From Uliginosibacterium sp. 31-16 (GTDB lineage Bacteria > Pseudomonadota > Gammaproteobacteria > Burkholderiales > Rhodocyclaceae): a stretch of DNA of 64,000 nt. A program made the position numbers and the translations under genes. The notes under the pieces are model-generated. The model did no database searches. It was given only the letters and a program-made list of their open reading frames with translations, and was not told the DNA's origin. The stretch is taken from positions 186,001 to 250,000 of the forward strand of contig NZ_JAVALZ010000003.1 in NCBI RefSeq assembly GCF_030730865.1, given 5' to 3'. Positions 5,967-64,000 of this stretch are shown here, piece after piece. Position 1 is the first letter of the stretch; each line of letters starts with the position of its first letter.

Positions 5967-7774
5967 GACGGGCTGGCCTCCTCAGGCGCGGTTTCGGGCT
6001 GGCAAACCGGCAGGGTGATCCTGAATGTGGTGCCTTCGCCGGGCGTAGAACACACTTCAATCTTGCCGTGGTGCTTGTGCACGATGCCGTAGGACAGCGA
6101 CAGGCCAAGGCCGGTGCCTTTGCCCACCGGTTTGGTGGTGAAGAAGGGGTCGAAGATGCGGCTCATCACCTCCGGTGACATGCCACAGCCGTTGTCGCTG
6201 ATCTCGATCCAGACATGTTCGTTTTCAGCTCCGGTACGCACGCGGATCGTGCCGCGCGCCTCGGGCTTGATGGCATGCGCTGCGTTGACCAGCAGATTCA
6301 TGAAGACCTGGTTGAGCTGCGAGGGCAGGCACTGGATCTGCGGCAGCACGCTGAACTCGCGTACCACATCGGCCTTGTATTTGATCTCGTTGTTGACCAC
6401 GTTGAGCGTGGACTCCAGACCGCGGTGCAGATCAACCCATTGCCAGTCGGCGCTGGCATCGACGTGGGAAAAGTCTTTCAGATCCTGCACGATCTTGCGT
6501 ACCCGTTCGATTCCCTCGCGCGATTCGCGCATCAGGTCAAGCAGGTCGGTTTTCAGGTAGTCCAGATCGATGCTCTGGCGTAGCGTGGCGAGTTCTGCGC
6601 GCAGGCTGTCATTGCAGATGTCCGGCTCGGCCTGGACGTAGGCGTCGATGAGCCTGAGCAGGTCGGCGAGGTAGGTCTGCAGGCTGCCGAAATTGGAGAA
6701 TACGTAGCCGATGGGATTGTTGATCTCGTGCGCCACGCCGGCGGCAAGCTGGCCGATGGACGCCAGTTTTTCGTTCTGTACCAGCTGCTGCTGACTCTGT
6801 ACGAGGCGATCCTGGGTTTCGTGCAGCTGTGCATTGAGCGCGGTGACTTCCATCAGATGCTGCTGCATCTCGCCTTCGATCTGTTTGCGCCGGGTGATGT
6901 CGAATTCGAGTGCGGTTTTGGCTTCGCGCAACTCGCGGGTGCGCTCGGTGACCAGTTGTTCGGCGGCCTCGCGGGCGTTGCGCAATTCCTTTTCGGCGGC
7001 TTTGCGATCAGTGATGTCGATCAGGGTTTCGATGGCGCCGATGATCTCGCCGCCCGCATCGCGCAGCGGGGTGGCCGCCACATGCATCCAGCGCGCCGGG
7101 ATATTGCCATGCTCTGCAACATACAGTTCGGCCTCGAAAGCGCCGTCCGTGGCGGGCGATTTCCACAGGCGCCCGTTGAATTTCTGGCGCAAGCCGTCTT
7201 CGTCAACCGGATTCATGACCCAGTCTGCGAGCAACTGGCCCTTGCCTGCGCCCAGAGCGCTGCCGGCGTCGTCGCTGCCGATCAGATGGTTGGCCGGGAT
7301 GCCGGTGATCACTTCGCAGGCGCGATTCCAGTGCGTGACGCAGTGGTCCTTGTCGAGAACAAAAGTGCCGACCGGATAACCTTCGATGATTTCGGTGAGC
7401 AGTTGCAGCATCGATGCTTCGGCGCCCTCGGCGCGCATGCGCGAAGTGACATCGGTACAGGTGGCAATCTGGACCGTGCGGCCTTCGAAGTCGGTGGGCT
7501 GCATGCTGACTTCAAACCAGCGATCGCTGCCGTCCTTCATCGGCCAAGGCAAGGCGTCGGCCCAGCTCTGGCCGAGGGTGAAGTCGATCCACGCATCGCC
7601 ACCGAGTTCGCGCAGGCTTCTGGCCTGCAGTTCGCGCAGGTTCATCCCGACTATGCGGGAGAATTTGGTGTTGGCAAACAGCACCGACTCAGCGTCGATC
7701 ACGAGGATGCCGACATCGACCAGATCCAGCAGCAGGAAGCTTTGCCAGTGCAGGGGCTCCAGATTCTTGATCAT
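5963..7774 (-). CDS. Cytoplasmic PAS-PAS sensor histidine kinase
   Basis: 603 residues. Two PAS domains (about 10-110 and 120-258), a long coiled coil (258-335), then the phospho-acceptor motif AHEINNPIGYVF with H349 and a complete ATPase domain (DNGCGM, GTGLGLS). It resembles the second kinase of the cluster downstream of the coiled coil, which suggests duplication. No membrane segment. The start is the ATG at 7774, which overlaps the stop of the upstream response-regulator gene (ATGA); longer in-frame extensions would run back through that gene. Its stop overlaps the DctP-like start. Confidence 0.92.
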   Translation of the reverse strand: MIKNLEPLHWQSFLLLDLVDVGILVIDAESVLFANTKFSRIVGMNLRELQARSLRELGGDAWIDFTLGQSWADALPWPMKDGSDRWFEVSMQPTDFEGRTVQIATCTDVTSRMRAEGAEASMLQLLTEIIEGYPVGTFVLDKDHCVTHWNRACEVITGIPANHLIGSDDAGSALGAGKGQLLADWVMNPVDEDGLRQKFNGRLWKSPATDGAFEAELYVAEHGNIPARWMHVAATPLRDAGGEIIGAIETLIDITDRKAAEKELRNAREAAEQLVTERTRELREAKTALEFDITRRKQIEGEMQQHLMEVTALNAQLHETQDRLVQSQQQLVQNEKLASIGQLAAGVAHEINNPIGYVFSNFGSLQTYLADLLRLIDAYVQAEPDICNDSLRAELATLRQSIDLDYLKTDLLDLMRESREGIERVRKIVQDLKDFSHVDASADWQWVDLHRGLESTLNVVNNEIKYKADVVREFSVLPQIQCLPSQLNQVFMNLLVNAAHAIKPEARGTIRVRTGAENEHVWIEISDNGCGMSPEVMSRIFDPFFTTKPVGKGTGLGLSLSYGIVHKHHGKIEVCSTPGEGTTFRITLPVCQPETAPEEASPS

Positions 7775-8631
7775 GTGTGCGGGCCCGGATAAATGGCGAT
7801 GAGCTGCCCCTGCCTGCGGTGTGAAAGGGTTTGCCGCTGCACGACATACGTCTGATCCTGCAGCGCGACGGTGATGCGCTCCGGGCTCGGGGCGTCGAGC
7901 AGGGCCGCTATCGGTGCCGGCAGCATGGGGGCGGCGGGTTTGCACAGGGTCAGCGGTCCTGGCAGCAGTCCCAGTGCAGCCCGGTTGGCGAATACGAGCA
8001 GGCCGCTGTCATCAATGCCGAGAAGCGCTACAGGCAGGTCGTGAACGATTTCCTGCAGGTTCTGCAGGGCATCCTGGGTAAAGTCGGCGCGTTCGGCGAG
8101 TTGCTGGTTGGCGTGGGCAAGCTCTTCGTTGACCTCGACGAGCATGGCCTGGAGCATGCGGTTCTCGTCCTGCACCCACTTGTGGCTCAAGGCTTCCTTG
8201 ATCGACAGGCGCAGGATTTCGTCGTCCCAGGGTTTGGTCAGGAATTTGTAGACCGCCCCGTCGTTGATGGCGGCGGTGACGCTGTCCAGATCGGTGTAGC
8301 CGGACAGGATGATGCGTACGCTGTGCGGGCTCAGTTCGCGCGCCTTGCCCAGAAATACGGTGCCGACCATGTTGGGCATGCGCTGGTCGGAGATGATGAC
8401 GTCGACTTTCTCGGTGGCCAGAATGTCCAGCCCGGCCTGGCCACTGCCGGCACACAGGAGGTGATAGCCATCCTTGCGCAGCAGGCGGCGCAGGGCGGCA
8501 AGAATGTTTTCTTCATCATCGACCAGGAGCAGGGTGCTGGGCTTGATCTCGATGCTTGAGTTTCCCGGCCCTTGAATGGTTTCCATGAAGCCCTCGCTGA
8601 ACTGGATTTCATCGGGGCGACGACCCTTCAC
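7771..8631 (-). CDS. Response regulator with C-terminal PAS-like region
   Basis: First gene of the signalling operon, 286 residues from the GTG at 8631; an in-frame ATG at 8586 is an alternative start. AGGGGA lies seven bases before the GTG and GAGGG five bases before the ATG, so both are possible. Receiver domain with LLLVDDEENIL and phospho-acceptor D82 (IISDQRMPNM), ending in KFLTKPWDD. A coiled linker (about 145-175) leads to a short PAS-like segment (ALLGIDDSGLLVFANRAALG). There is no DNA-binding domain, so output is probably by protein contact. The receiver is close in sequence to that of the HD-GYP protein. Confidence 0.88.
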   Translation of the reverse strand: MKGRRPDEIQFSEGFMETIQGPGNSSIEIKPSTLLLVDDEENILAALRRLLRKDGYHLLCAGSGQAGLDILATEKVDVIISDQRMPNMVGTVFLGKARELSPHSVRIILSGYTDLDSVTAAINDGAVYKFLTKPWDDEILRLSIKEALSHKWVQDENRMLQAMLVEVNEELAHANQQLAERADFTQDALQNLQEIVHDLPVALLGIDDSGLLVFANRAALGLLPGPLTLCKPAAPMLPAPIAALLDAPSPERITVALQDQTYVVQRQTLSHRRQGQLIAIYPGPHT

Positions 8632-60559: not shown

Positions 60560-62332
60560 GTGAAAGTCGCCAAGCGTACGTTTGATGCGGTAATCGTCGG
60601 TGCTGGTGGCGCCGGCATGCGTGCTGCGGTGACTCTGGCCGAGTCCGGCCTGAAGACTGCGGTGATTTCAAAAGTGTTCCCGACCCGTTCGCATACGGTG
60701 GCGGCGCAGGGGGGAGTGTCTGCTTCGCTGGGCAACTCCGAGCCGGATCACTGGACTTGGCACATGTACGATACGGTCAAGGGTTCCGACTGGCTCGGCG
60801 ATCAGGACGCCATCGAGTTCATGTGCAAGCAGGCGCCACAGGTGGTCGTCGAGCTTGAGCACTACGGCATGCCGTTTGACCGTACCGATGAGGGCAAGAT
60901 CTATCAGCGTCCTTTCGGCGGGCATATGTCGAATTTCGGCGAGAAGCCGGTGCGCCGCGCCTGTGCAGCGGCTGACCGTACCGGTCACGCCATGCTGCAT
61001 GCGCTGTATCAGCGCAATGTGCGGGCGAATACCCAGTTCTTCGTCGAGTGGCTGGCGCTGGATCTGCTGCGGGCGGCTGACGGACGCGTTCTGGGTGTGA
61101 TCGCCATGGAAATGGAAACCGGCGAAATTACCGTGTTCCAGGCCAAGGCTACGCTTTTCGCCACCGGTGGTGCCGGACGCATCTACTACTCCTCGACCAA
61201 TGCCTTCATCAATACCGGTGACGGCGTGGGCATGGCGGCACGAGCTGGCATTCCGCTGGAAGACATGGAGTTCTGGCAATTCCACCCGACCGGTGTGGCC
61301 GGGGCAGGTGTGCTGATCACCGAAGGTGTGCGCGGTGAGGGCGGCATTCTGCGTAACGCCTCTGGCGAGCGTTTCATGGAACGCTATGCCCCGAACGCCA
61401 AGGATCTGGCTTCGCGCGACGTCGTGTCGCGTGCAATGGTCACCGAAATCAATGAAGGTCGCGGCTGTGGTACCGCCAAGGATCACGTATTGCTCGACAT
61501 CACTCACCTTGATGCCGACGTGATCAACAAGCGTCTGCCGGGTATCCGCGAAATCTCGATTCAATTTGCAGGTGCTGACCCGATCAAGACGCCGATCCCG
61601 GTGGTGCCGACCTGTCACTATCAGATGGGCGGCATTCCGACCAATTATCGCGGTGAAGTCGTCGCGCACGGTGAGGCCGTTGCTGGTTTCTACGCGGCGG
61701 GTGAATGCGCCTGTGCTTCGGTTCATGGAGCCAACCGTCTGGGTACTAATTCGCTGCTGGATCTGCTGGTCTTCGGCAAGAGCTCGGGCGAGTCGATGAT
61801 CGAGTTCATTCGTGGTGAAGGCGCCGCCTTGCCCGAGATTCCACAGGGAGAGATCGACAAGGCGCTGGCTCGCGTGAATCGACTGGATACGCAGAAGAAC
61901 GGCGCAGATGTGCATGAAACGCGACTGGCCATGCAGCGCACCATGCAGGCACATGCCGGCGTGTTCCGCTTCAAGGACATGCTTGCCCAGGGCGTCGACA
62001 AGATCCTCGATATCGAGAAGCAGGTGCTGCAGACCGAAATCAAGGACAAGTCGAAAACCTGGAATACGGCGCGCACCGAAGCACTGGAACTTGAAAATCT
62101 GATCGAAGTGGCCAAGGCCACCATGATCTCGGCTAACGCCCGCACCGAATCGCGCGGCGCTCACGTGCGCGACGATGCGCCGGATACTCCCGAGCATCCG
62201 AATGGCCGTGACGACGCCAACTGGCTCAAGCATTCCCTGTGGTACCGCGAAGGCAATCGTCTGGAATACAAGCCGGTTAACCTCAAGCCGCTGACCGTTG
62301 AAAGCGTTGCGTTGAAAACGCGTGCCTACTGA
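60560..62332 (+). CDS. sdhA: Succinate dehydrogenase flavoprotein subunit
   Basis: 590 residues from a GTG, with GGAGG upstream inside sdhD. FAD-binding motif VIVGAGGAGMRAAVTLAESG, FAD-attachment His in RSHTVAAQGGVSASLGN, substrate-site motif QFHPTGVAGAGVLITEGVRG and the HGANRLGTNSLLDLLVFG segment. Oxidises succinate to fumarate. Central gene of sdhCDAB. Confidence 0.98.
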   Translation: MKVAKRTFDAVIVGAGGAGMRAAVTLAESGLKTAVISKVFPTRSHTVAAQGGVSASLGNSEPDHWTWHMYDTVKGSDWLGDQDAIEFMCKQAPQVVVELEHYGMPFDRTDEGKIYQRPFGGHMSNFGEKPVRRACAAADRTGHAMLHALYQRNVRANTQFFVEWLALDLLRAADGRVLGVIAMEMETGEITVFQAKATLFATGGAGRIYYSSTNAFINTGDGVGMAARAGIPLEDMEFWQFHPTGVAGAGVLITEGVRGEGGILRNASGERFMERYAPNAKDLASRDVVSRAMVTEINEGRGCGTAKDHVLLDITHLDADVINKRLPGIREISIQFAGADPIKTPIPVVPTCHYQMGGIPTNYRGEVVAHGEAVAGFYAAGECACASVHGANRLGTNSLLDLLVFGKSSGESMIEFIRGEGAALPEIPQGEIDKALARVNRLDTQKNGADVHETRLAMQRTMQAHAGVFRFKDMLAQGVDKILDIEKQVLQTEIKDKSKTWNTARTEALELENLIEVAKATMISANARTESRGAHVRDDAPDTPEHPNGRDDANWLKHSLWYREGNRLEYKPVNLKPLTVESVALKTRAY

Positions 62333-62352: not shown

Positions 62353-63063
62353 ATGACCTCCCGTACCGTCAAATTCAAGATCTACCGCTACGATCCGGAC
62401 AAGGACGCAGCGCCTTACATGCAGGACATCTCGGTCGAACTCGATCCGTCCGATCGCAAGTTGCTGGATGCTCTGGTGAAGATCAAGGCGCTGGATGATT
62501 CGATGTCCTACCGCCGCTCCTGTCGCGAAGGTGTCTGTGGTTCGGATGCCATGAACATCAACGGCAAGAACGGTCTGGCTTGTCTCACCGATATCGACAG
62601 CCTGCCGCAGCCGATCACCTTGCGCCCCTTGCCGGGTCTGCCGGTGATTCGCGACCTGATCGTGGACATGACCCAGTTCTTCAAGCAATACCACTCGATC
62701 AAGCCGTATGTGGTGAACAACTCGCCGGCCCCGGAAATGGAACGCCTGCAGACGCCAGAAGAGCGCGAAGAGCTCAATGGCCTCTACGAGTGCATTCTCT
62801 GCGCCTGCTGTTCGACGAGTTGTCCGAGCTTCTGGTGGAATCCGGACAAGTTTGTCGGTCCGGCCGGTTTGCTCGCCGCTTATCGTTTCATTGCAGATAC
62901 CCGTGATGAAGCCACCAACGAGCGTCTGGATAACCTTGAAGATCCGTATCGGCTGTTCCGTTGTCACACCATCATGAATTGCGTGGATGTGTGCCCGAAA
63001 CATCTGAACCCGACCAAGGCCATTGGCAAGATCAAAGAGCTGATGCTCTCAAGGACAGTCTGA
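62353..63063 (+). CDS. sdhB: Succinate dehydrogenase iron-sulfur subunit
   Basis: 236 residues. [2Fe-2S] ligands in SCREGVCGSDAMNINGKNG with a following AC, [4Fe-4S] ligands in CILCACCSTSCP and [3Fe-4S] ligands in CHTIMNCVDVCPKHLNPTKA. Passes electrons from SdhA to quinone. Only 3 bases separate its stop from the sdhE start. Confidence 0.98.
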   Translation: MTSRTVKFKIYRYDPDKDAAPYMQDISVELDPSDRKLLDALVKIKALDDSMSYRRSCREGVCGSDAMNINGKNGLACLTDIDSLPQPITLRPLPGLPVIRDLIVDMTQFFKQYHSIKPYVVNNSPAPEMERLQTPEEREELNGLYECILCACCSTSCPSFWWNPDKFVGPAGLLAAYRFIADTRDEATNERLDNLEDPYRLFRCHTIMNCVDVCPKHLNPTKAIGKIKELMLSRTV

Positions 63064-63066
63064 GCG

Positions 63067-63369
63067 ATGGCAGACCTGCATCCACTGCGCGAGAAGATCA
63101 GGTGGCGGGCACGTCGTGGCTTGCTGGAGATCGACCTTTTCTTCACCCGCTTTGCGGCAACAGAGCTCGACAAGCTCACTGAAACACAACTTCTCGATTT
63201 GCAGGATTTGCTGACCTGCGATGACCATGAATTGTGGGCCATGCTTAACGGCAAGCAGGAATGCACGGTCGACAAGTGGAAAAACATGGTGACCCTGCTG
63301 CGGCAGAGTGCGCCAGCGATACCAACAGAAGCGCCCCCAGAAACACGTTCCAAGGAAGGGAATGAAGGC
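63067..63369 (+). CDS. sdhE: SdhE flavinylation-factor domain, in frame with gltA and lacking its own stop
   Basis: 101 codons from the ATG at 63067. Residues 1-78 match SdhE ([16 protein letters not shown] with the RGxxE motif needed for SdhA flavinylation, [13 protein letters not shown]). After the usual end of the family, residues 79-101 form a proline- and charge-rich stretch ([20 protein letters not shown], then NEG) and the frame continues without a stop into the gltA ATG at 63370. Either the product is an SdhE-GltA fusion, or a stop has been lost by mutation or sequence error. The reading was checked codon by codon. Confidence 0.85.
63353..63360 (+). promoter_or_regulatory. Internal Shine-Dalgarno site for gltA
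   Basis: AGGAAGGG ends nine bases before the gltA ATG. It supports separate initiation of citrate synthase even though the upstream frame is open. Confidence 0.65.
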
Positions 63370-64000
63370 ATGACCACACAGAAAACCGCCACGCTTGGCT
63401 TCAATGGCCAGTCCTACGAGTTTCCGGTTCTTTCCGGAAGTATCGGCCCGGATGTCATCGACATCCGTACGCTGTATGGCAAGACGGGTGCCTTTACCTT
63501 CGACCCGGGTTTCATGTCGACGGCGGCCTGTAAATCCTCGATCACTTATATCGATGGTGACAAGGGCGAGTTGCTCTATCGCGGCTATCCGATCGAACAG
63601 CTCGCAGTGAACTGCGACTATCTGGAAACCTGCTACCTGCTCAAGAAGGGCGAGCTGCCCAACAAGACCCAGTATGACGATTTCGTCGGCACGGTTAAGC
63701 AGCACACCATGGTGCATGAACAGCTGACCCGTCTGTATCAGGGCTTCCGTCGCGATGCGCACCCGATGGCGATTCTGGTCGGCATGGTTGGCTCACTGTC
63801 TGCCTACTATCAGGATTCGCTGGATATCAACAATCCCGAGCACCGCACCATCGCGGCGATGCGTCTGATCGCCAAGCTGCCGACGATCACGGCGATGGCC
63901 TACAAGTACACGATCGGCGAGCCTTTCATGTACCCGCGCAATGATCTGGATTACGCCGGCAACTTCCTGCACATGATGTTTGCCACGCCGTGCGAAAAGT
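63370..64000 (+). CDS. gltA: Citrate synthase, type II (3' end outside window)
   Basis: The first 210 codons are visible. They align with Escherichia coli GltA from the start: [73 protein letters not shown] and [20 protein letters not shown]. The catalytic His and Asp lie beyond the edge. Condenses oxaloacetate and acetyl-CoA. Last visible gene of the gntR-sdhCDAB-sdhE unit, and in frame with sdhE. Confidence 0.95.

Follow-up and report, generated by a model that had tools for sequence, protein, structure and literature searches.

In-frame fusion of sdhE with the citrate synthase gene gltA directly downstream of sdhB in Uliginosibacterium sp. 31-16

The sdhE and gltA genes of Uliginosibacterium sp. 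31-16 were confirmed to form a true in-frame gene fusion directly after sdhB. The window analyzed is a stretch of 64,000 nucleotides (contig NZ_JAVALZ010000003.1, positions 186,001 to 250,000), and all features described here lie on its forward strand. The ORFs whose sequences read as sdhA (SDH flavoprotein, the substrate of SdhE) and sdhB (SDH iron-sulphur subunit) occupy positions 60560..62332 and 62353..63063, respectively, and the sdhE ATG is located 3 nt past the end of the sdhB stop. The ORF scan of the window showed that the frame starting at this ATG (63067) is free of stop codons to the window end and enters the GltA ATG at 63370 after 303 nt, corresponding to 101 codons, at the same coordinates as in the first-pass annotation. 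The SdhE part (residues 1–78 of the fusion, 63067..63300) was delimited by PF03937, conserved motif columns, and a structure model. It is followed by a linker (63301..63369), mostly predicted to be unstructured from its sequence and the structure model, whose previously annotated length of 23 codons was borne out by reading of the junction. The citrate synthase part, assigned by TIGR01798, begins at 63370, fills the rest of the window (63370..64000), and runs past it to residue 534. The frame ends at a TGA beyond the window (locus L001), giving 534 residues counted from the ATG at 63067, and the calculated masses are 59.9 kDa for SdhE-GltA versus 48.2 kDa for GltA alone. Pfam placed Sdh5 (PF03937, residues 10–80) and Citrate_synt (PF00285, residues 148–517, 457 bits) on this single chain. 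The ORFs downstream of the fused gene read as sucA, sucB, and lpd. As no stop precedes the GltA end, the only form of SdhE that the frame directly predicts is the fusion with citrate synthase. With a probability of roughly two in three, we consider the locus to be a composite gene that would give a read-through SdhE-GltA protein and, probably via an internal start, free GltA, the two forming mixed oligomers.

The SdhE part passes the Pfam family PF03937 with 64.9 bits (cut-off 27) and fails the NCBI equivalog NF008130 with 26.7 bits (cut-off 120). This shortfall lowers the NCBI equivalog call for SdhE, not the Pfam family call. The RGxxE motif is present as RGLLE at residues 17–21, and the invariant columns among 22 aligned sequences include W13, R16, R17, G18, E21, and D23. 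In the available portion of a previous study, this motif is described as required for flavinylation, and G16 of the motif in E. coli SdhE as touching the FAD-bearing histidine, with mutation of G16 reducing flavinylation (PMC5773532). The structure model, which covers SdhE and the linker (residues 1–101), comprises five helices, which extend to residue 81, and then a structureless tail. In a Foldseek search, the first 12 of the 36 matches were SdhE, YgfY, SDHAF2/Sdh5, or UPF0350-type chains with a best rmsd of 1.2. Two of the 36 reached an E-value of 0.001, and the matched chains include YgfY/SdhE and an SdhA-SdhE complex. The fusion shares the fold and the RGxxE motif with free-standing SdhE/YgfY/SDHAF2 (Sdh5) proteins (PDB 1x6i, 6c12, and 6b58), while its SdhE differs from them in being the N-terminal domain of another enzyme without a stop of its own. 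The GltA part passes the equivalog TIGR01798 with 771.7 bits (cut-off 485.15). It resembles proteobacterial GltA over the whole enzyme, residues 105–531 of the fusion matching residues 26–451 of 4xgh, the best PDB sequence match, and differs from ordinary GltA in the 101-residue N-terminal extension that holds SdhE.

The first-pass annotation had proposed comparing the junction in related genomes. When the junctions of the eight genomes of this genus were read, sdhE-gltA was free of stops in five, namely the host (G000) and four congeners (G001, G004, G005, and G007) with different linkers. Measured from RQS to the GltA ATG, the linkers span 23 codons in G000, 25 in G001, 20 in G004, 19 in G005, and 18 in G007; the five linkers thus have five lengths, with whole codons throughout and no stops. 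In G004, a run of N lies inside sdhB, and none lies between sdhE and gltA. The other three genomes (G002, G003, and G006) are unfused, with sdhE in another frame than gltA. In G002, the stop of sdhE and the start of gltA share an ATGA; in G003, 5 nt separate the sdhE TGA from gltA, and in G006, 19 nt separate the sdhE TAA from it. A sequencing or assembly error, which the first-pass annotation had kept as an alternative, would require only one single-base indel to create a fusion, and the G002 and G004 junctions indeed differ by a net one base. However, four further genomes are fused, each with a different linker, and the host assembly (3.9 Mb) consists of only 8 contigs and is 99.75% complete. 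Since all five linker lengths are in whole codons, one assembly error is not the source. The probability of such an artifact is negligible in our estimate, and sequencing error was rejected as the origin of the fusion on account of the four fused congeners.

Profile searches of the host genome with PF03937 and PF00285 gave one match each, which in both cases was the fused gene, and no second SdhE or citrate synthase gene was found by these searches. With no further SdhE found in the host, the fused SdhE presumably works, and the GltA part is probably catalytically active because it is the only PF00285 gene there. PF03937 gave a single match in each of the eight genus genomes. The number of PF00285 genes in the fused genomes is one in G000, G004, and G005 and two in G001 and G007; the fusion is the sole citrate synthase gene in only three of the five.

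The linkers were compared pairwise among the five fused genes, and the numbers of differences at codon positions 1, 2, and 3 were 40, 43, and 83, respectively. The permutation p value of the third-position excess was 0.005 for the whole linker (20,000 draws with positions swapped within codons) and 0.0135 and 0.008 for the linker core, cut in two ways to leave out the SdhE end and the ribosome site. These statistics come from five related sequences, and because the alignment was built on the translated proteins, the third-position result leans towards codon structure. The pN/pS values of the 10 pairs were 0.16–0.52 for SdhE, 0.18–0.95 for the linker, and 0.04–0.13 for gltA, indicating that the SdhE part stays constrained, though less than GltA. 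The chance odds that at least four of the five other clade members are in frame and that the four other linkers are stop-free were 0.045 × 0.173 = 0.008, a value that assumes an independence not fully met by related genomes. T makes up only 10% of the five fused linkers taken together, and this scarcity makes stop codons rare there.

The same linkers bear on two ways in which SdhE might be released. Cleavage of a polyprotein in the linker would release SdhE and leave a short N-terminal tail on GltA. Such processing would suit a linker that varies in length and sequence and is predicted to be unstructured, as the model has no helix past residue 81 and pLDDT values of 60–65 for residues 81–101. 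By eye, however, the linkers had no motif in common apart from their RQS end and their EG..G end with the ribosome site, and we regard cleavage as unlikely. Alternatively, a programmed frameshift in the linker could free SdhE at a TGA overlapping the gltA ATG. The frame shifted by one base reaches the ATGA of the gltA start in four of the five fused genes, and runs of five or six C are present in G000, G005, and G004. Against this, the shifted frame has an earlier stop in G001, no such C run is found in G001 or G007, and the ATGA is dictated by the second GltA residue and often occurs in unfused genes as well. We regard frameshifting as very improbable.

The history of the fusion was examined with trees of sucA, sucB, lpd, gltA, sdhA, and sdhB, rooted on G373, a genome of the same family outside the genus. 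The sucA and gltA genes were available from all nine genomes, sucB and sdhA from 8, lpd from 7, and sdhB from 3, with the G006 gltA being partial; rpoB, found in only 4 of the 8 genomes, was left out. G006 and G003 were placed outside a clade consisting of the five fused genomes and G002 with support values of 97/97 for protein and 100/99 for DNA positions 1+2. The unfused G002 was located inside the fused group in both six-gene trees, and each tree needs two changes of fusion state. A single clade of the five fused genomes was rejected with the six genes (p-AU of 0.038 for protein and 0.0019 for DNA); therefore, the fusion was either lost once, in G002, or gained more than once. The same clade was not rejected with gltA DNA alone (p-AU of 0.245), whose tree is too weak for placement. 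The position of the unfused G002 inside the fused group indicates that the cell evidently can do without the fusion. The TTCTTCTAG before gltA is common to G002 and G004, whose junctions, counted from the serine codon of RQS/RRS to the ATG, are a net one base apart. The step between fused and separate genes is thus small in either direction. As to its origin, the spacer between sdhE and gltA probably shrank to an overlap, after which a small indel aligned both frames. The junctions represent a natural series of gene merging, from a spacer through a stop just before the start and an ATGA overlap to full fusion, with the downstream start kept. In G006, the sequence just 5′ of sdhE (contig C13, locus L185, ~7700-7850) is unlike the sdhB end that precedes sdhE in most other genomes of the genus.

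The AGGGA at 63357..63361, designated here as the retained gltA ribosome-binding site, ends 8 nt before the GltA ATG. Among unfused loci of the family, 37 of 55 have AGGGA within 20 nt 5′ of gltA, and it ends 5–8 nt before the ATG in 34 of these 37; the gltA ribosome site of other Rhodocyclaceae with separate genes is the same as that in the fusion. All five fused genes, and the unfused G003 as well, have AGGGA at 8 nt upstream of the GltA ATG; the exact word is absent in G002 and G006. The fused genes spell it as GAA GGG A, and the glycine of the motif is encoded by GGG in 5/5. In the genes of this region from the same genomes, GGG accounts for 5–20% of Gly codons, and its conservation despite this rarity suggests that AGGGA has been preserved as a ribosome site. 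Because this site is kept inside the fusion, free GltA is probably also produced by internal initiation. The pairing energy with the 16S tail, calculated without spacing, does not set the gltA start apart, as 9–44% of 357 internal ATGs are equal or stronger. No sigma-70-like promoter site was found in 62900-63450. The earlier description of a good internal gltA ribosome site in the linker is thus upheld by the AGGGA kept at 8 nt and not by the pairing energy, which is unexceptional. Independent initiation of gltA, formerly listed as an alternative to the fusion, agrees with the retained site but does not have to be chosen against the fusion.

In the composite gene, ribosomes from the sdhE ATG would read through to the GltA end and produce SdhE-GltA, and further ribosomes would start at the old gltA ATG via AGGGA and produce ordinary GltA, probably in excess. 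Citrate synthase of this class is oligomeric, and the fusion and free subunits would therefore co-assemble, so that some SdhE domains would hang from the citrate synthase core on flexible linkers of 18–25 residues. While tethered, SdhE would still associate with SdhA and promote the covalent attachment of FAD ahead of SdhB docking. SdhE is a turnover helper and GltA is required in bulk; a little fusion protein could cover the need for SdhE. If this is true, the fusion links complex II maturation to the first step of the TCA cycle in one polypeptide. A more far-reaching proposal, that the mixed SdhE-GltA/GltA oligomers act as a multivalent platform coupling complex II maturation to the citrate synthase level and that at least two other lineages arrived at the joining independently, is tentative and in our view rather doubtful.

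The strongest competitor of a functional tether is neutral stop loss, in which gltA has its own start, the fusion is tolerated, and the tether is functionless. The preserved gltA ribosome site and the unfused state of G002, G003, and G006 fit this explanation. On the other hand, the fused SdhE presumably works given the lack of a second SdhE match in the host, and the linker frame has been kept through several length changes with the third-position excess described above. Frame retention in the linker speaks for maintained read-through rather than for a useful tether. We give neutral stop loss somewhat less than an even chance.

The general view of SdhE/SDHAF2 is of a small, free chaperone that has to associate with SdhA and leave it again. 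The fused lineage would be a natural test case for the need of SdhE to leave and diffuse freely, and should SdhE only be tethered to citrate synthase, tethering would be shown to be tolerated. In the available portion of one article, fusion of SdhE to complex II itself was argued not to be expected, since flavinylation and catalysis have to succeed each other within one molecule (PMC5773532). The fusion partner here is another enzyme and thus escapes this objection. The first-pass annotation had known of no described sdhE-gltA fusion, and in agreement with this, no description of an SdhE-citrate synthase fusion was found in the openly licensed literature, judged mostly by titles and abstract starts. 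The available portions of five articles also contain no mention of an SdhE-GltA fusion (PMC5773532, PMC12727194, PMC9557727, PMC8102297, and PMC10238741). Two-polypeptide phage endolysins have an in-frame internal start, and according to the portion available, both of their products have been demonstrated experimentally (PMC9430671). As far as that portion goes, sdhE-gltA resembles them in having one frame and a shared stop, with an internal start that would give a full-length and a C-terminal product, and in possible co-assembly. It differs in that its second start is a predicted one and its parts are two unrelated metabolic proteins (PMC9430671).

Outside the genus, other Rhodocyclaceae and Burkholderiales with separate sdhE and gltA have the same gene neighbors as the fusion. 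Two frame-blind sets of 30 loci each, best by SdhE score, were collected, in which the gene pair was placed in 29 and 30 loci, respectively. None of these 59 placed pairs was fused, compared with 5/8 genomes in this genus, and the fusion is therefore more than chance. A search of 395 genomes of the family with the first 226 residues as the query gave matches in 362 genomes; among the matches listed that span both genes, only G000, G001, G004, G005, and G007 were stop-free. For the class, 309 of 321 genomes had a match, and among the matches listed only G000 and G100, the latter with a stop, reached the SdhE start. Most of the others cover GltA alone, and the class search thus says little on distant fusions. 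In the order (399 genomes, 384 with a match to the L125 query), only G000 was stop-free among the matches listed spanning both genes, and the fused G080, though searched, was not among them. Both genes were placed in 70 of 80 named loci, a set biased to in-frame pairs, and one of the 70 (L125) was fused. Taking the placed loci outside the genus together (not all independent genomes), a stop lies between sdhE and gltA in 153 of 154, and the sdhE stop is at least 10 nt before gltA in 149; of the rest, L028, L029, L128, and L153 are closer or overlapping, and L125 is fused. This count excludes 21 rows from the genus and 4 second copies or purposely fetched loci (L187-L190).

The L125 fusion (JAUXRG010000078.1, L125:2974-4572) is in frame with a short linker and belongs to a MAG labelled Rubrivivax; another MAG with this label (L171) has a stop between sdhE and gltA. 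In the G080 MAG (contig C256, L187:2135-3823), sdhE-gltA forms an open frame of 562 codons with a long linker that looks like a plain spacer, and a congener, G033, has a stop between the two genes. These two fusions are probably independent of that in the genus and may be sporadic events. Their sporadic appearance, with the G080 fusion absent in G033 and the L125 fusion in one MAG, is a further point in favor of neutral stop loss. The gltA frames of G831 and G942 (L227 and L228), which are 1015 and 915 codons long, were rejected as fusions. Their upstream parts, in which Arg, Pro, Ala, and Gly abound, were judged by eye to be chance frames of G+C-rich DNA; by itself, then, a long open frame is weak evidence of fusion. 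In L028 and L029 (G268 and G050, from another family of the order, f43), the sdhE stop and gltA start overlap as ATGA, like those of G002.
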